From the NCBI GenBank assembly GCA_027482195.1, contig JAIXWE010000005.1, forward strand, positions 1-33,402: a stretch of 33,402 bases of DNA. The letters are read 5' to 3'. Positions within the stretch are counted from its first letter, which is position 1, and each line of letters opens with the position of its first letter. Source of the DNA: Alphaproteobacteria bacterium. Lineage in GTDB: Bacteria > Pseudomonadota > Alphaproteobacteria > Micavibrionales > Micavibrionaceae. Under the pieces are notes generated by a model, which ran no database searches, was not told the DNA's origin, and worked only from the letters and a program-made list of their open reading frames with translations. Positions 3,676 to 16,001 of the stretch are shown piece by piece. Both the position numbers and the translations under genes were made by a program.

Positions 3676-4716
3676 TTAAGTCGCAATCAAACGAACACCG
3701 GCAAATGGATCGCGCACAGTCGATACCATGCGCTTTTCAGCAAACATTGTTACAAAGCCGGGCGCAGTCTGTTCCATCGCCTGAACAGTCATTTCCTCAA
3801 CATCGGCAATCGTCAGGAATTTAGCCCAATCAGCAAGGTAAATAGAAATGCTGCCGGTTGCAGTCCATGCATCCAAATACGGATTTGGGATCACAGGCCA
3901 ACCAAATACATTGACCACCGCACCGCCATTGTTCGTGCCGGTTTCCATAAAGTACGGAACATTGCCAGCCGATACCGCTTTGGTCAAAACATCGATTGCC
4001 GATGGATGCATCATCCATGCGGTTGTTGGCGAGTTCCAATATTGACCGGGCAGCGCAAGACGCATTTCCGACAATGTAGATTTGCTCAGACCGGCAACCG
4101 TTGCGCCGACTGTGGCAATAGTATGCCGACCATTGGTAATCGCTGTGCCGCTTGATCCAAACGCCGATACAGCACCAGCAGCGCCGGGATAACTATTCAG
4201 ACCGCGCAGACCATAAATGCCGCCTGTGCTGGTTGTAGTGCTTCCTGCCTGATCGTTATTTAAGCCCATTGACGCGCCTTCAAGTTGCGCGAATTCCATC
4301 ATCAAATCTTCAATGAGTTCGTTATTCAGGCCATTAACGTCTGACAATACCGCTGTGCGGATTGGCATCTGTGCGGTAATCACTCGCGTTGGCAATTGCC
4401 AAATCGATGTGTTGATATTAGGTGATCCGCTGTTGGGCGTGAATACATAGCCCCACGGGTTTGTGCTGTTTGCCGCATTACCTGTCTTTGCGACAAATTG
4501 AACGTCCGACATATTTGCGGTTTTGATTTGACGCGCACCCAAACGATATGGGTTGGCATATCGAAATGCTGCAAATACATCATCAAAGAAAGTTTGACCA
4601 CCAACACCAGAACCGCTGCCGGTAAGAGCAGAAGCCTCGCGCAAATCAATGGTGATTCTATCGCCAGTTTCTAGCGTCTGTTTGATACCGGTTAGGATTT
4701 TTTCGTTGGCTTTCAT
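3676..4716 (-). CDS. Second major capsid protein paralogue, lacking the delta (scaffold) domain
   Basis: A 346-residue HK97-fold capsid protein starting MKANEKILTGIKQ. It aligns with the upstream capsid protein from EASALTG onward: shared blocks include AKTGNA, IWQL, PIRTA, NNDQA, YGLRGL/NGLRGL and C-terminal EKR...PFAGVR. The upstream paralogue has about 105 residues before EASALTG; this one has only about 30, so the coiled-coil delta domain is essentially missing. I chose the ATG at 4716 because GGAA lies just upstream; alternatives are 4725 and 4758. It may build part of the shell (for example vertices) or be a variant shell protein. An intrinsic terminator separates it from copy 1. Confidence 0.88.
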   Translation of the reverse strand: MKANEKILTGIKQTLETGDRITIDLREASALTGSGSGVGGQTFFDDVFAAFRYANPYRLGARQIKTANMSDVQFVAKTGNAANSTNPWGYVFTPNSGSPNINTSIWQLPTRVITAQMPIRTAVLSDVNGLNNELIEDLMMEFAQLEGASMGLNNDQAGSTTTSTGGIYGLRGLNSYPGAAGAVSAFGSSGTAITNGRHTIATVGATVAGLSKSTLSEMRLALPGQYWNSPTTAWMMHPSAIDVLTKAVSAGNVPYFMETGTNNGGAVVNVFGWPVIPNPYLDAWTATGSISIYLADWAKFLTIADVEEMTVQAMEQTAPGFVTMFAEKRMVSTVRDPFAGVRLIAT

Positions 4717-4738
4717 TTTTTCCATTCCCAAATTTAGC

Positions 4739-4768
4739 AAAAAACCCCGGCAGCACACGCCACCGGGG
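4739..4768 (-). terminator. Intrinsic terminator between the two capsid genes
   Basis: On the minus strand: CCCCGG, a 12-base loop, CCGGGG, then six U. The perfect 6-bp G/C stem and U-tract make a good rho-independent terminator 11 bases after the stop of capsid copy 1. It would favour copy 1 transcripts and lower expression of capsid copy 2 and genes beyond unless antiterminated. Confidence 0.88.
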
Positions 4769-4779
4769 AAGCCGCATCA

Positions 4780-6123
4780 TTAGGTTGACGTGCCAGTAGA
4801 ACGATAACGAACACCAGCAAACGGGTTGACAACCGAAGTTGCCAAACGCTTTTCACCAAAGAACGTGATGAAGCCGGGGAGGGTTTGATCGTAACGGCGC
4901 ATGACCATCGACAGACGATCAACAGTGGTATGGAAACGCGACCAATCTGCAAAGTACATTGGATACAGGCTATTAGTACCAGCCGATCCAGTGGTCAACT
5001 GCGAAGGCGTATCGCAATACTTGTTGACGATAACGTCAAAGCCCATCAGCGTACCGACAATGCCATCATCACGCGACAAACCGTCAATGTAGATCGGGCG
5101 CTTCTGATCATCAACCAGACCGCGAATCTGCTGAAGCAGTACAGGGTTAATCATAAACTTAGCATCGGGAGTCCAGTATTCCTGTGGCAGCGAATAGACA
5201 AAATTCACAACGTCTTTGTATGTGATATTACCCGCACCGACCGTATTGGCGTTGGTGGTGAGCTGGTCATAAGTAGCAAGCGAATGCAGACCAGTAGTGC
5301 TACCAGTACCGCTATTGCCAAAAGCGGCAGTAGTAACAGAACCGCCAGCGTAAGTTGCAGCAGAACCAGCGTACTGATCCAGACCGCGCAGACCGTTTGT
5401 GCCACCGTATGGGTTGGAAACAGATTGAGCAGCTTGGTCATTGTTCTGCACCATTGAGAGTGCTTCAGACTGAGAGAATTCCAGCAGCATATCCGAAACA
5501 ACATTTGCTTCCAGACCGTCAATGTCATCCAGCGCAGCGGTACGGATTGGGAACTGGACGTTAATATCTTGCAGAACCAATTGCCAAATGGTTGTATCTT
5601 CAGTTGTGGTTGCACCGTTGTTCTGGATGGTGTAACCCCATGCAGCACCAGCGTTGCCGGTTTTTGCACGGAACTGATACGAAGAACCATCGGTTGCAAC
5701 TTGACGCGAAATTTGACGCATTGGGTTTGCAAGACGCAGCGGAGCAAACACTGGATCATAGGCAGTGCGACCACCCTGATTGTTACCGCCGCCTGTCAAT
5801 GCCGATGCTTCCTTCATGTATGCATCATATTCAGCAGCATCTTCAAACAGTTTCAGTTCCTTTTCCATGCGGGAATTGGATTTGTAGAACTGTGCAAGCG
5901 ATTCACGAACACGGCGATTAACGTCAACCTGAATGCCTTTGTTTGCGCGAACAATCTCAGGTGCGCGAATCTGTGCAACCTTTGCTTCCAGTGCTGCGAC
6001 CTTTTCGGCAAAAGAAACTTCAGCAGCAGCAACTGCCTCAGACACTTTTTCAGAAACGATTGCTTCGGTTTTTTCTTGCAGGTTCGATTCAATGGAATCG
6101 AGTTTTTCAATAATTTTGTCCAT
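4780..6123 (-). CDS. Major capsid protein, HK97 fold, with N-terminal scaffold domain
   Basis: A 447-residue protein. Residues 1 to about 60 (MDKIIEKLDSIESNLQ..., then repeated Ala/Glu/Lys heptads) predict a coiled coil, the delta domain that scaffolds assembly in HK97-type phages. The shell domain starts near EASALTGGG (about residue 106), the probable protease cleavage area, and ends GFITFFGEKR...NPFAGVRYRS, a typical HK97 capsid C-terminus. It follows the prohead protease and is followed by a strong terminator and a paralogous capsid gene. Confidence 0.95.
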   Translation of the reverse strand: MDKIIEKLDSIESNLQEKTEAIVSEKVSEAVAAAEVSFAEKVAALEAKVAQIRAPEIVRANKGIQVDVNRRVRESLAQFYKSNSRMEKELKLFEDAAEYDAYMKEASALTGGGNNQGGRTAYDPVFAPLRLANPMRQISRQVATDGSSYQFRAKTGNAGAAWGYTIQNNGATTTEDTTIWQLVLQDINVQFPIRTAALDDIDGLEANVVSDMLLEFSQSEALSMVQNNDQAAQSVSNPYGGTNGLRGLDQYAGSAATYAGGSVTTAAFGNSGTGSTTGLHSLATYDQLTTNANTVGAGNITYKDVVNFVYSLPQEYWTPDAKFMINPVLLQQIRGLVDDQKRPIYIDGLSRDDGIVGTLMGFDVIVNKYCDTPSQLTTGSAGTNSLYPMYFADWSRFHTTVDRLSMVMRRYDQTLPGFITFFGEKRLATSVVNPFAGVRYRSTGTST

Positions 6124-8495: not shown

Positions 8496-10157
8496 TTAAA
8501 AAACTCTAAAGCCAAAATTATCATTTGATACTGGATGATCTAATGAGCAATGAATCGCTATAACTAAAGCAATCACTCCATCCACTTTTGCAGATTTGTC
8601 TGCCTCATTCTTGCGTAATTTTATATTTCCTTGAACGTCCTCATAGACTTCAATATTTGAAATTTGCCATCCTAAAAATGGGTTGCCATCATGTTTAATA
8701 TTTTTTGAAAGAATTAATTTTTCTAAATGTTTAGATGGATTGCTTAATACTGCCATTCCTTGGCCAACTTTTGTAAGCGGCAATCCTTGGTCATTTAATC
8801 TTGCCACCAAACTTGCGGCATTATAACTATCGTATCCTAATGTTTTAACATCATATTTTTTTGCTTGGCTTATTATGTAATCGGATATTTCCCGATCATC
8901 CATGACGTTGCCTTGCGTCAAATGCAATATGTTTGAATCGCAAGCATTGCGGAATATATCCTGATAATGTTGCGGCACATGGTTTAATCCTTCTTCGGGC
9001 AGAAAGAATTTCCATTCCGCAAAATAGTCATCTTCAGCATACCGCTTCAGCGTACATACAGCATTTAAATCGCGAGTTGCCGCTAAGTCAAAACCAATAA
9101 AGACCGCTTCCGGTTCGCGCTCATCTTTGGGCACAGAGCATTCATCCCAGTGTGACCGATCAATCCATGCGGAATTTGCACTTACAAAAACATTGAGCGT
9201 CTTGCAAAGAAACTCATTTAGCGTTGCAGGTTTATGTTTTGCTTCCTCTGCCCGTTGCTGAATTGCTTCCTCAAAAACCGTGATGCCATGCATCGGGTTT
9301 GCCTTTGCCCATACCGCTGCATCTTTCCAATCGTCTTGCGTATCCAGCCCATATAGCAGCCCAAACCATCGGGGATTATCTGTCGCTTCGCCCGATAGCA
9401 TGGTTTGCATCATGAGCAAATCTTCATGAAACTTCGTATCCTTCGTAAAACTTGCCGTAGTGATATATATCCTAAGCGGATTTTTACGCGCCACCATACC
9501 GGAATGTAGAACCTCAATTGAATTCCTATCAATGATTTGCGCCGCCTCATCAATGATGGCGCATGATGGATTCATGCCATCGCCTGTTTTCTTTGTATCC
9601 CGCGACAATGCTTTAAACATCGATTGCGAATCGCCAATCTTTGTAATGTGATTCTTTTGTACGTTGTACAAGTTTTGCACTTCAGTCGGCATAGATTCAA
9701 TCAGACCTTTTGCCGATGTGAATACAATGCTTGCCTGATCCCGGCTAGTTGCCAGCGTATAGACTTCAGAACCTTTTTCGCCGAACAATAATTCGTATAA
9801 ACCAATCACAGCAATCAGCGTTGACTTGCCAGCCTTACGGGGAATGAACACGATCACATCATTGACCATGCGTTTGCCTTTGTCTTTTTTAGACCAAAAG
9901 CCATAGATGCCGCAGATCAAAAGTATCTGGAATGGTTCAAGGATTACAGGTTGCCCGGCATATACGCCCTTTGCATGGCGCATGATTGAAGCAAATTTGA
10001 GGAAATGCTCTACCGCTTCAGGATGGAATTCCCATTCCCATTCGCGGTTTTCGAGTTGATTGAGGAATCTTTGACAGGCAAGCAAAACATTGCGGCAAAC
10101 AAGTATCTCGCCCTTCACTACTTGATTGGCATAAATAACCCCATCCTGCCATTTCAT
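8496..10157 (-). CDS. Terminase large subunit (Terminase_1 / HK97 gp2-like)
   Basis: A 553-residue protein. ATPase: Walker A-like FIPRKAGKST near residues 104-113 and Walker B CAIIDEA near 199-205. Nuclease (RNase H-like) domain: GFDLAATRDLNAV (acidic residue near 357) and the late DGVIALVIAI segment. It cuts and translocates DNA into the prohead. I chose the ATG at 10157, which overlaps the small-subunit stop (ATGA), over a TTG four codons upstream. Confidence 0.95.
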   Translation of the reverse strand: MKWQDGVIYANQVVKGEILVCRNVLLACQRFLNQLENREWEWEFHPEAVEHFLKFASIMRHAKGVYAGQPVILEPFQILLICGIYGFWSKKDKGKRMVNDVIVFIPRKAGKSTLIAVIGLYELLFGEKGSEVYTLATSRDQASIVFTSAKGLIESMPTEVQNLYNVQKNHITKIGDSQSMFKALSRDTKKTGDGMNPSCAIIDEAAQIIDRNSIEVLHSGMVARKNPLRIYITTASFTKDTKFHEDLLMMQTMLSGEATDNPRWFGLLYGLDTQDDWKDAAVWAKANPMHGITVFEEAIQQRAEEAKHKPATLNEFLCKTLNVFVSANSAWIDRSHWDECSVPKDEREPEAVFIGFDLAATRDLNAVCTLKRYAEDDYFAEWKFFLPEEGLNHVPQHYQDIFRNACDSNILHLTQGNVMDDREISDYIISQAKKYDVKTLGYDSYNAASLVARLNDQGLPLTKVGQGMAVLSNPSKHLEKLILSKNIKHDGNPFLGWQISNIEVYEDVQGNIKLRKNEADKSAKVDGVIALVIAIHCSLDHPVSNDNFGFRVF

Positions 10158-10630
10158 TGCGGTTGCCAACCCTTCAGGAAGTCGGCCAATGGTGAAGCAT
10201 CTTCCAGCTTGTTTGCAGCAAGCCGTGACTTAGGCGTAAGGCCAAGTTCGTTCATTAACTTGACGCAATTATCCATCGCTTTGTTTGCAATGGTGATGTA
10301 CGGGTTTGGCGCAAGTGTTTTGCCACCGTTCATTTCGATCACCAGCGGCATAGTGTCTTGCTGTTTACGCGCATCAACATAAACTTGCATCTGGTCTGCC
10401 AACATTGTCAATGTGTGCCGATCCTGCTTTGAGCCAATGCCGTAAACGTCAAACAAATAATCGGCAGTTTCTTTGACAAACTTTTCCCGGTTAAAACCAT
10501 CAGGATTGTCTGCCCATTCAGCAAACGGGATTCTCGCTTTTATTTTTTCGGGCAGCATCATGCCGGGATTCTTCCCGACACTGCCATGCACTGAATGCAC
10601 TTCAGGCGGTAACTTGTGTGATAAACCCAT
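10154..10630 (-). CDS. Terminase small subunit (P27-like)
   Basis: A 158-residue protein from the ATG at 10630 (MGLSHKLPPEVHSVHG...), preceded by AAGGAAAATAAT. An upstream GTG at 10666 is possible but less likely. The order (N-terminal phage-conserved G-x-x-P-K-x-P region, helical middle with DMQVYVDARKQ-type helix, C-terminal SRLAANKL) matches P27-family small terminases, which recognise the packaging site. It lies directly before the large subunit and directly after a 200-bp non-coding region rich in repeats and DnaA boxes. Confidence 0.82.
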   Translation of the reverse strand: MGLSHKLPPEVHSVHGSVGKNPGMMLPEKIKARIPFAEWADNPDGFNREKFVKETADYLFDVYGIGSKQDRHTLTMLADQMQVYVDARKQQDTMPLVIEMNGGKTLAPNPYITIANKAMDNCVKLMNELGLTPKSRLAANKLEDASPLADFLKGWQPQ

Positions 10631-10666
10631 ATTATTTTCCTTGTTACGGCTTTCCTTTTTGACCAC

Positions 10667-10867
10667 CCCATAGTTTCAGGCTATATGTGGAAGATTGCAC
10701 CCGCGCTTGCTGTATAACTTATCCACATTTTTTAAGTTATTCCTGCCAAAACCGCAGTTATCCACAGGTTATCCACAGACTTTATCCACAATCTATCCAC
10801 AGAATATTTTCTTTGTTGCATCATGCTCAATTGATAATGCTTTGTAATAGTTTCACGCTATAACTTA
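10667..10867. other. Non-coding region upstream of terminase: DnaA-box cluster, candidate origin / packaging or control site
   Basis: About 200 bp without genes. It contains four perfect TTATCCACA boxes (10719-10727, 10758-10766, 10769-10777, 10782-10790) and one near match CTATCCACA (10793-10801), all in one orientation; the last four start 11, 13 and 11 bp apart, about one helical turn. Other repeats: ATAGTTTCA at 10670-10678 and 10847-10855, TATAACTTATC at 10713-10723 and 10859-10869, and an inverted repeat ATAACTTA/TAAGTTAT (10714-10721/10733-10740) enclosing the first box. HK97-like phages place cos between HNH and terminase genes, so packaging signals may also be here. Confidence 0.85.
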
Positions 10868-10871
10868 TCAA
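10844..10871 (-). promoter_or_regulatory. Candidate sigma70 promoter for the terminase/structural genes
   Basis: On the minus strand TTGATA (10871-10866), a 16-bp spacer, then TATTAC (10849-10844). Five of six and four of six matches to consensus. Transcription from it would cross the DnaA-box array before the small terminase gene. It overlaps the end of the HNH gene and one copy each of the ATAGTTTCA and TATAACTTATC repeats. Confidence 0.45.
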
Positions 10872-11290
10872 TACATCATGCCCGATAGCCTTACATAATC
10901 GTCATCACTGTATTGGGTTATGCCATGCGCTGTGTAATGGTTGTATATCCCCTTGCGCTCATCCTGCCCCTTCAAGGTATGGCAACCAGTGCATAGCGAT
11001 TGAAACAGGTTCACCTTAAACTTTGCTGTATCTCGCCTATGTGGGAATACATGGTCAACGGTTGACGCTGCGGTTATCTTCCCCTCATGCTGGCATCGAG
11101 CGCATAGCGGTTGCTTGCTTAGTTGCCGGGCGCGCATCTTATCCCAAGCCTGTTGGTTATACAGTTTGCTGTTTGCCTTACCAACTTCTGTCATCCCACC
11201 GCCATGCTCAGAGCAATATGCTGATCGTTGCGTCTTGGGATTGCGGCAGCGGTATTCCTTACATTCGGTATTCAGTGGTGCTGTTGGCAT
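10868..11290 (-). CDS. HNH endonuclease (terminase-associated type)
   Basis: A 140-residue protein (MPTAPLNTECKEYRC...). N-terminal Cys/His cluster (C-KEYRC, YCSEHGGG) is followed by CARC and the HNH core TVDHVFPHRRD...NLFQSLCTGCHTLK, with the DH, N and CxxCH residues that bind metal and DNA. HNH nucleases placed just before the terminase genes are common in HK97-like phages, where they assist terminase cleavage at cos. The start overlaps the upstream stop (TAATG), which favours the ATG at 11290 over upstream in-frame ATGs. Confidence 0.88.
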   Translation of the reverse strand: MPTAPLNTECKEYRCRNPKTQRSAYCSEHGGGMTEVGKANSKLYNQQAWDKMRARQLSKQPLCARCQHEGKITAASTVDHVFPHRRDTAKFKVNLFQSLCTGCHTLKGQDERKGIYNHYTAHGITQYSDDDYVRLSGMMY

Positions 11291-11487
11291 TACCGGGCAA
11301 CCCCACGCCATTGCAATGATTGATAACACGATTTGCATTTTGCATCAGGATATACATCAGCGTACCAATATCGCCCATCCCAATAGCAATACTCAATTAC
11401 GTCTGTGCGATAGATGGGATACAGTCGTTGATATATCCCCTCACGCGCAGGTAATTGCCATCCGTTAAACCATTGCGTTACCTGCAT
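11290..11487 (-). CDS. Small phage protein of unknown function (YWDG / WRG motif)
   Basis: A 65-residue protein (MQVTQWFNGWQLPAREGIYQ...). It contains YCYWDGRYWY and ends QSLQWRGVAR, a pattern (P-x-R-x-G-x-Y, YWDG-x-x-W, WRG near the C-terminus) seen in small proteins of many phages near HNH or replication genes; the function is unknown. ATG at 11487 is chosen because GAGGG lies 5 bases upstream; a TTG at 11541 would be a longer alternative. Its stop overlaps the HNH start by one base. Confidence 0.72.
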   Translation of the reverse strand: MQVTQWFNGWQLPAREGIYQRLYPIYRTDVIEYCYWDGRYWYADVYPDAKCKSCYQSLQWRGVAR

Positions 11488-11580
11488 GATTACCCTCGCA
11501 TAAGTAGCCGGTCTTTCCCGGCAGTCATCGGCAATCTGCAACCATCCAGTGCACCATCGTGTTGCTCTCGCCTTGCCAAC

Positions 11581-11811
11581 CTATTCCTCTGCTTCCTGTG
11601 CCGGTGGTGCAACAGGTTCAATGATCGGCGTTTGCATCAATGCCGACAAATGCTGAAGTGCAACATATTCAGCCGTGTCTGGCTTTGCCTTTGCAAGCCG
11701 GGTATTAATTTCTTTGGCATCCAGTGTTTCGAGATAACCGGCAGCAGCTTGTGCCAATGATTGGTAAGTGCTGGTCAAATGCTCAATTGCTGCATCAAGT
11801 TGTTTGCTCAT
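11581..11811 (-). CDS. Hypothetical small helical protein
   Basis: A 76-residue protein (MSKQLDAAIEHLTSTY...), predicted mostly helical with an acidic Pro/Ala-rich tail (PVAPPAQEAEE). AAGGAATTATC precedes the ATG. Not recognised. It follows the ferritin-like gene by 9 bases and probably belongs to the same transcript. Confidence 0.7.
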   Translation of the reverse strand: MSKQLDAAIEHLTSTYQSLAQAAAGYLETLDAKEINTRLAKAKPDTAEYVALQHLSALMQTPIIEPVAPPAQEAEE

Positions 11812-13764: not shown

Positions 13765-13988
13765 TGCTCCCCCTTCGCTCTCAGGTTTTTATCCACTGTT
13801 GCGTCAATACAAGTGCCTTCCAATTGCTTTATTTCGCCGCCGGTTTGCTCTGCTCTTTCACGCATTTTTTGCTTTTGATGCCGCACTTCCTCTTTGCAAA
13901 CTTCCTCACTGGTATAAAAATCTCTTTTTTGCATAAATTCACAATGAGCATTGATGCAAATCCATAGCACAGGAATAAAAATTGTCAT
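13761..13988 (-). CDS. Hypothetical small protein with N-terminal hydrophobic segment
   Basis: A 75-residue protein from the ATG at 13988 (MTIFIPVLWICINAHCEF...). Residues 2-13 are hydrophobic, possibly a signal or membrane anchor; the rest is charged (KEEVRHQKQKMRERAEQ). The start is 1 base after the stop of the 58-residue gene, so I prefer it over longer in-frame starts further upstream. Not recognised. Confidence 0.6.
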   Translation of the reverse strand: MTIFIPVLWICINAHCEFMQKRDFYTSEEVCKEEVRHQKQKMRERAEQTGGEIKQLEGTCIDATVDKNLRAKGEQ

Positions 13989-14453: not shown

Positions 14454-14628
14454 ACCAATCTATCCTCTTTTGTATTTTGTCGGCAGTGTCTTTAATGTAC
14501 AACCTGCAATCATGCTCTTTTTCCAATGAATAAAATGTTGCCATAGTCATTGTGCAAAACCCAAATCCATGCCGCGATAATGTTTTGTCTTTCCGCAAGT
14601 CTAAAAACCGGCATTCAATGCAACGCAT
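14440..14628 (-). CDS. Small cysteine-containing protein, probable zinc binding
   Basis: A 62-residue protein (MRCIECRFLDLRKDK...). The spacing CIEC...GFGFC...HDC resembles small zinc-binding phage proteins with C-x2-C, then a later C and a terminal H/D-C. AAGGAAG lies about 10 bases upstream of the ATG at 14628. Located just after the P-like gene. Exact role unknown. Confidence 0.65.
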   Translation of the reverse strand: MRCIECRFLDLRKDKTLSRHGFGFCTMTMATFYSLEKEHDCRLYIKDTADKIQKRIDWYESR

Positions 14629-15301
14629 TCGACAATGCTTCCTTTGCAAAACTAATCTGTATGTGCGTCAGCGTTTTATCCCCTGCCTTATGACGTTCCA
14701 TAATCAATTTTGCCCATCGCTTGTGATCTACCTTTGAATCCTGATTCTTGATTACTTGCGTTTCAGCAAGATAATGCTCTGCCACTTCCTTTGATGCTGG
14801 TGCTGGTGCTGGCAGCGCAATCATTGGTTCGGGTATATCAAACCATGCGCCCTTTGCCATTTCTTCCGACAATGCCGCTTCCCATCTGCCTTTAATGTTG
14901 GAATACGTCTGATGCTTCAGATCAAACGCGCCAACCTTGACCGATGCCCAAAATATTGCAGGATGTGACCATTCGCCCACGTTGCCATGCTCACGCGCCA
15001 CAACGCCATTAACCGCCTCATAGTAGGCAGAAACAGCGTCAACCGATGGTTTGCATAATTTGATGAATTGCGGCAGCGTTGGAGGCCATTCTTGCGTCAT
15101 TAGGGCATTTGCACCTCGCGCAACTTCATCACGCGACAATTTGCCCAACTCTTGCGCCCATGTTTCTTTGACTCCCTGCAAATTAACATCGCGCCACATA
15201 TCCAAAAATCTATGCCCGTATAACGAAACCATGCGATCAAACAATTTTTCAATCCATGCCATCGGCAGCGGATCAATTGAGGTCGATAATTGATTCATCA
15301 T
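14615..15301 (-). CDS. Replication protein P-like helicase loader
   Basis: A 228-residue protein (MMNQLSTSIDPLPMAWIEKLF...). The N-terminal W-x-x-x-LF-x-x-M...YG-x-x-F-x-x-x-W-x-x-x-N region and the repeated helical WPPTLPQFIKLC/PAIFWASVKVGAFDL segments match phage P-type proteins, which bring host DnaB helicase to the initiator at the origin. It starts 29 bases before the end of the DUF1376 initiator gene, the O-P order of lambdoid phages. The start AAAAGGAATT supports ATG at 15301; a second ATG follows at once. Confidence 0.75.
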   Translation of the reverse strand: MMNQLSTSIDPLPMAWIEKLFDRMVSLYGHRFLDMWRDVNLQGVKETWAQELGKLSRDEVARGANALMTQEWPPTLPQFIKLCKPSVDAVSAYYEAVNGVVAREHGNVGEWSHPAIFWASVKVGAFDLKHQTYSNIKGRWEAALSEEMAKGAWFDIPEPMIALPAPAPASKEVAEHYLAETQVIKNQDSKVDHKRWAKLIMERHKAGDKTLTHIQISFAKEALSNALH

Positions 15302-16001
15302 AATTCCTTTTGCCTGTCAAAACTTCCATTGCTTCGCGTCTGCTTTTATCTTTTGCGTTTGTATATGTGTCGTATCGCCTTTGATTTCTAACCCAGTTGC
15401 GCCAAGTTGCAAACCAATCCGTTTTTCTACCTTTTGCACCGGGTTGTGCAATCCAATAATCGCGGAAACTGTCTGAAACAACTTTCCAATCTAAATCAGG
15501 CCTATTCAATTTGCAATATTCTATTTCATCAATACTTGGGACCCAATCTTTAGGCAATTGCGTTCCGCGATTGCTTTTAACATTGGTTATTGGTTTATGG
15601 TTATTGGTTATTGGTTCTTGGTTATTGGTTGCCTTTCCATCTGGTTGCGAATCGGTATCCAATTGGTTCCCATCCGTATCCCATTGGGTTTTTTTAGGTC
15701 TGCCGCCTCGCTTACCATTTTCACGATTTTTTTCTGCCATTGAATGATATTGAGTAATGACCTCATCGCATCGCCCATGAAACCATCCATTTTCTTGCAA
15801 AAGAAAAAAGTCTTTTAAAACGCGCAAAACCACATCGGTATCCAATCGCAAGCGTCTGGAAACCCATTCGGTATCTGTTGGGATAGGTTTTTCAAGATCG
15901 TAATACATATCAAGCAATCGCCGATATGCCAAATCTTCATCATTGCTTAAATGTGCGGTATCGGCGCGATAATCGCCGATATGAAATTGGTAGTAATACA
16001 T
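15273..16001 (-). CDS. DUF1376 replication initiator (lambda O-like role)
   Basis: A 242-residue protein. Residues 1-90 show the DUF1376 pattern (MYYYQFHIGDYRADTAHLS, DLAYRRLLDMYY, PIPTDTEWVSRRLRL, GWFHGRCDEVI). Residues about 90-150 are a polar linker containing GKRGGRPKK and an N-N-x-x-P-I-T repeat that is encoded by a 7-bp iteron array. The C-terminus (DWVPSIDEIEYCKLNRPDLDW..., FRDYWIAQPGAKGRKTDWFATWRNWVR) is the usual end of this family, likely DNA binding. It should recognise the origin and hand over to the P-like loader. Confidence 0.8.
   Translation of the reverse strand: MYYYQFHIGDYRADTAHLSNDEDLAYRRLLDMYYDLEKPIPTDTEWVSRRLRLDTDVVLRVLKDFFLLQENGWFHGRCDEVITQYHSMAEKNRENGKRGGRPKKTQWDTDGNQLDTDSQPDGKATNNQEPITNNHKPITNVKSNRGTQLPKDWVPSIDEIEYCKLNRPDLDWKVVSDSFRDYWIAQPGAKGRKTDWFATWRNWVRNQRRYDTYTNAKDKSRREAMEVLTGKRNYDESIIDLN
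15582..15630. repeat. Seven tandem 7-bp iterons (ATTGGTT) within the initiator gene: candidate origin
   Basis: Seven consecutive units without a gap: ATTGGTT, ATTGGTT, TATGGTT, ATTGGTT, ATTGGTT, CTTGGTT, ATTGGTT. A further ATTGGTT lies at 15662-15668. In lambda the O protein binds iterons inside its own gene, so this array is a candidate replication origin. Three units equal 21 bp, which gives the 7-residue N-N-x-x-P-I-T repeat in the protein. Confidence 0.75.

Follow-up and report, generated by a model that had tools for sequence, protein, structure and literature searches.

In E. coli, datA is a titration locus on the chromosome, an IHF-dependent cluster of strong DnaA boxes outside an origin. 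The DnaA-box array described here is likewise a cluster of strong boxes that probably lies outside the main origin, but datA is chromosomal and is not located at a DNA end. The injection stop signal of phage T5 contains DnaA boxes (PMC13250531) and, like the present array, combines them with repeats in non-coding terminal DNA. In T5, the boxes are found 5-9 kb into a long terminal repeat, whereas the present array touches a cos end. According to passages of a study of phage HK97, its cos has a 10-nt 3′ overhang and its small terminase site is at +15 to +29 from cos (PMC11331095). As far as those passages go, HK97 shares with the present locus the gene order (its HNH protein is gp74), a homologous TerL, the predicted overhang length, and a repeat at the same offset. 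The passages make no mention of DnaA boxes, whereas here an array of boxes abuts the right end.

The window, which is the whole stretch of 33,402 nt that was analysed, represents a phage contig that is complete and circular, its ends overlapping by 77 bp, and was binned within a 1.8-Mb genome. Among named phages, Methylophilaceae phage P19250A is the closest, with a TerL that is 70% identical. The genes around the array are ordered HNH, array, terS, and terL on the minus strand:

10868..11338, minus strand, HNH endonuclease gene (PHROG 144, PF01844)
10719..10801 (83 bp), plus strand, DnaA-box array, composed of four exact TTATCCACA and one CTATCCACA
10719, 10758, 10769, and 10782, plus strand, exact TTATCCACA boxes
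10793, plus strand, near-match box CTATCCACA
10154..10630, minus strand, small terminase gene terS (PF05119)
8496..10157, minus strand, large terminase gene terL of HK97 type (best solved relative 6z6d)

The best solved relative of TerL is a terminase large subunit (6z6d, E 2.8e-34), which we take to be HK97 TerL; phmmer gave no solved relative for TerS. The HK97-type TerL and an HNH gene upstream of terS are those of an HK97-type cos region. Elsewhere in the window, two adjacent capsid-like genes (3676-4758 and 4780-6123) look like duplicated paralogues, as do two similar, adjacent tail-like genes (1187-1705 and 1720-2214).

The initial annotation had described four perfect boxes and one near match in 83 bp, all in one orientation, and these are confirmed at 10719-10801. 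The boxes are spaced by 39, 11, 13, and 11 bp from start to start, in agreement with the claimed 11-13 bp spacing of four of them. The exact boxes are identical to the DnaA consensus 9-mer and are kept in relatives, which supports their assignment as DnaA boxes. No other exact TTATCCACA is present in the 33.4-kb window. Under a Markov model, a genome would have about 0.14 exact boxes on each strand, and the estimated probability of four same-strand copies within 83 bp is about 1e-12, so that a chance origin is indeed very unlikely. The proposed helical phasing does not hold in a strict sense, because the offset of the cos-proximal box from an invariant 12-mer varies by 0-2 bp among relatives.

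The position of cos was deduced from 69 loci encoding relatives. Eleven of the relatives' contigs (L007, L008, L011, L012, L013, L015, L024, L027, L031, L045, and L069, with L012 and L013 being near-identical) start at the base equivalent to 10699 of the window, and more diverged contigs start at apparently the same cos position. Three other contigs (L232, L236, and L216) end at the base equivalent to 10710. The ten bases between these ends read CAAGCGCGGG on the minus strand, and circular or read-through contigs contain them. Contig ends lying ten bases apart point to an HK97-type cos at 10700-10709. The overhang is probably 3′, because end repair would then strip the same ten bases from both ends. 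The assignment is based on assembled contigs rather than reads and fits HK97. The cos region contains the following elements:

10700..10709, no strand assigned, cosN, a putative 10-nt cohesive end with 3′ overhang (CAAGCGCGGG on the minus strand)
10670..10685, minus strand, ATAG-N7-CTAT repeat, candidate small-terminase site at +15 to +30 from cos
10847..10862, minus strand, second ATAG-N7-CTAT repeat, next to the stop codon of the HNH gene
10730..10741, minus strand, 12-mer AATAACTTAAAA, identical in all 14 cos regions that were aligned, with or without an array
10803..10826, minus strand, conserved block GCATGATGCAACAAAGAAAATATT, adjoining the array in roughly half of the relatives that have one

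The nearest DnaA box is only 9 bp from cosN. With cos at 10700-10709, the array thus lies at the very right-hand end of the virion chromosome. The paired 16-bp repeats that had been noticed around the array are real and 94% identical, and both copies are recognisable in most relatives, including array-free ones. By analogy with HK97, TerS may bind the ATAG-N7-CTAT repeat. The 12-mer AATAACTTAAAA is located at a near-fixed distance from cos. Since it is conserved more strongly than the boxes and is still present where they are gone, it is possibly a better candidate for a packaging signal. Many relatives (L004, L006, L009, L012, L014, L020, L021, and L064) carry an inserted gene between cos and terS whose start resembles that of a ParB-type DNA modification methylase (KIQEIEIEKLIPYARNSRTHSDEQVAQIAAS); the window lacks this insertion.

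The array is found at cos in about 11 relatives. Across six genomes, the boxes are 98.1% identical versus 60.8% for the spacers. Eight genomes with the array contain 27 exact boxes in total, every one of them at cos; three of these genomes (L016, L017, and L018) are nearly the same virus and do not count as independent. The box number ranges from about two to five and the exact offset also varies, while a pair of boxes with a CC spacer (11-bp period) is kept in most array-bearing relatives. Throughout the family, the boxes point the same way with respect to the late genes. The L011 contig, 36.6 kb long, has its left end at +1 and five boxes at 42-124 bp from its right end; its last bases look chimeric. 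No relatives were found among the GTDB representative genomes.

Absence from close relatives had been named as an observation that would speak against the array. The array is kept by most relatives with the region in hand and is missing from several, namely L006, L020, L021, and L064. These four retain the HNH gene, AATAACTTAAAA, cos, and the repeats wherever sequence is available, and the gene order is unchanged. The 35.6-kb contig of L064 contains no exact box anywhere. The array is therefore dispensable.

The comparison with host oriC boxes that had been suggested gives no match, as the dnaA locus of the bin, where dnaA follows a ribosomal protein S20-like gene, is devoid of exact boxes; this bin is not necessarily the phage's real host. 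It also holds a second phage contig (G000:C105, L214), which carries three exact DnaA boxes at 13816-13869 with the same 20-mer TTATCCACAGGTTATCCACA. They sit upstream of the HNH and terminase genes of that contig.

Box clusters in named phages were found by blastn with the array as query. The Arthrobacter phages Tiff81, Seahorse, RadFad, BillyTP, Gorpy, and Auxilium display the same order of HNH gene, DnaA boxes, and right cos end, with one to three exact boxes plus variants. In Tiff81, terS comes first, at position 52 of the left end, and the only three exact boxes of the phage are all within 92 bp of the end. The boxes are absent in Hestia, which has a different terminal HNH gene. The Arthrobacter group differs from the present phage in its sequence and its actinobacterial host, and its boxes are unannotated in the records. 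In Berlinvirus A7, all eight exact boxes come from one set of four that occurs at each end of the record, inside a terminal repeat. Ten of the 11 exact boxes are in terminal repeats in Klebsiella phage Kp7, as are 10 of 11 in the T5-like phages BF23 and Spc35. The Spc35 record annotates the terminal-repeat DNA as entering the host first. The Berlinvirus and Kp7 loci (L249, L250, L251, and L257) each have four to five exact boxes in the terminal repeat region, again unannotated.

Several of these named examples were chosen because they are terminal. In a rough count of blastn matches, 10 of 16 groups have boxes in the outermost fifth of their records (P ~2e-4), with the grouping made by eye and the record ends not always physical. 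A position-blind sample of 120 viral-contig arrays shows a weak enrichment, with 35 arrays within 1 kb of contig ends compared to 20.5 expected. Terminal placement is thus a strong pattern in certain groups of phages but unproven as a general rule. The neighbours of the 120 arrays are mixed (terminases, resolvases, methyltransferases, and primases) and reveal no clear theme. Four viral contigs (L186, L093, L104, and L160) contain seven to eleven exact boxes within about 500 bp. A search of the open-access literature for DnaA boxes together with cos or terminal repeats retrieved no report for cos.

The initial annotation had suggested several functions for the locus, including terminase binding at cos and a DnaA-dependent origin. 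A cos does lie within the interval, at 10700-10709, yet the array itself is not the terminase recognition site, because nearly identical terminases occur in phages without it. TerS of L009, which has four boxes, is 96% identical to that of L006, which has none, and the TerL proteins are 95% identical; TerS of L004 (three boxes) and of L021 (none) are 94% identical. Array-free relatives as a whole have TerS identities of 91-96%, and the array was rejected as a TerS-binding site on this ground. The adjacency to cos and the conserved orientation would suit 9-mers that serve the small terminase or the HNH protein and merely resemble DnaA boxes. Given the L009 and L006 pair, the identity of the 9-mer to the DnaA consensus, and the location of the HK97 TerS site on the opposite side of cos in the passages cited above, this explanation is very improbable, and a terminase site is nearly excluded. 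The array might instead be a replication origin, either main or second, as several strong boxes adjoin an AT-rich stretch. The AT-rich 12-mer is equally invariant where the boxes are missing, however, and the phage carries a replication module of its own about 4 kb from the array:

15273..16001, minus strand, gene for an O-like replication protein (DUF1376, primosomal)
15582..15630, no strand assigned, seven ATTGGTT iterons within the gene of the O-like initiator, probable origin of replication
14615-15301, P-like helicase loader

The O-like initiator gene is present in both array-bearing and array-free phages, and AACCAAT-type iterons (AACCAATAACCA repeats) are found in the window, L006, and L064. 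The array is thus not kept wherever the replicon is kept. In addition, the GC skew, which is confounded by gene orientation, shows no inflection at 10.7 kb. Because the initiator and iterons are retained in array-free phages and a skew inflection is absent, the array is probably not the main origin, and an origin of either kind is improbable.

Titration and transcription control, which had also been proposed, are viable. Under titration, the four to five strong boxes of each phage copy would soak up DnaA and stop host initiation, and their position at cos would be incidental. The boxes are of the consensus, high-affinity type, and it is their presence rather than their exact phase that is conserved, with about two to five among relatives. 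Titration leaves unexplained why all boxes are terminal in several unrelated phages, and we consider it unlikely. Alternatively, DnaA bound to the array could act as a roadblock or regulator of transcription running from HNH through cos into terS and terL, and be relieved as phage copies dilute DnaA. The array was said to sit between a candidate promoter and the terminase. Its placement between the co-oriented HNH and terS genes stands, and the uniform orientation of the boxes would fit such control, but a scan of 10100-11600 found no sigma-70 promoter and the gene order is identical in array-free relatives. A roadblock therefore appears quite unlikely.

We tentatively favour, at somewhat less than even confidence, an accessory site for host DnaA at the right tip of the phage chromosome. 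It would act at the terminus or the concatemer junction and not serve as an origin. The binding of host DnaA to the array is predicted from the exact consensus, the selection on the 9-mers, and their independent recurrence. In the most probable concrete form, DnaA would load on the tip when the linear genome comes in or when its ends are joined, and the loaded DnaA might tether, pause, or shield the end. Such a role has been suggested for the boxes in the injection-stop region of T5. If the phage behaves like lambda, it would package its right end last and inject it first. An action at the terminus agrees with the location of cos at 10700-10709, as fixed by the contig ends of relatives, and with the roughly 11 relatives that carry the array there. 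It would also account for the common position of the boxes in Arthrobacter, T7-like, and T5-like phages. The missing array in L006, L020, L021, and L064 and the weak contig-end enrichment among the 120 position-blind arrays argue against it, and an intergenic terminus may be mere free space that tolerates any regulatory cluster. The array is in any case separate from both the likely terminase site and the initiator.

A broader proposal, which we regard as rather unlikely, is that unrelated tailed phages, namely HK97-type cos phages from different bacterial phyla, T7-like phages, and T5-like phages, repeatedly placed DnaA boxes at their ends because host DnaA is a terminus-binding factor in entry, end joining, or concatemer cutting. 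No description of such a role for DnaA was found in the open-access literature searched. If it is true, the host replication initiator would gain a role at viral DNA ends, and scattered sightings of DnaA boxes in phages would become one testable pattern. The near-identical natural pair L009 and L006, with and without the array, and the cultured Arthrobacter phages of the same layout would make it directly testable.
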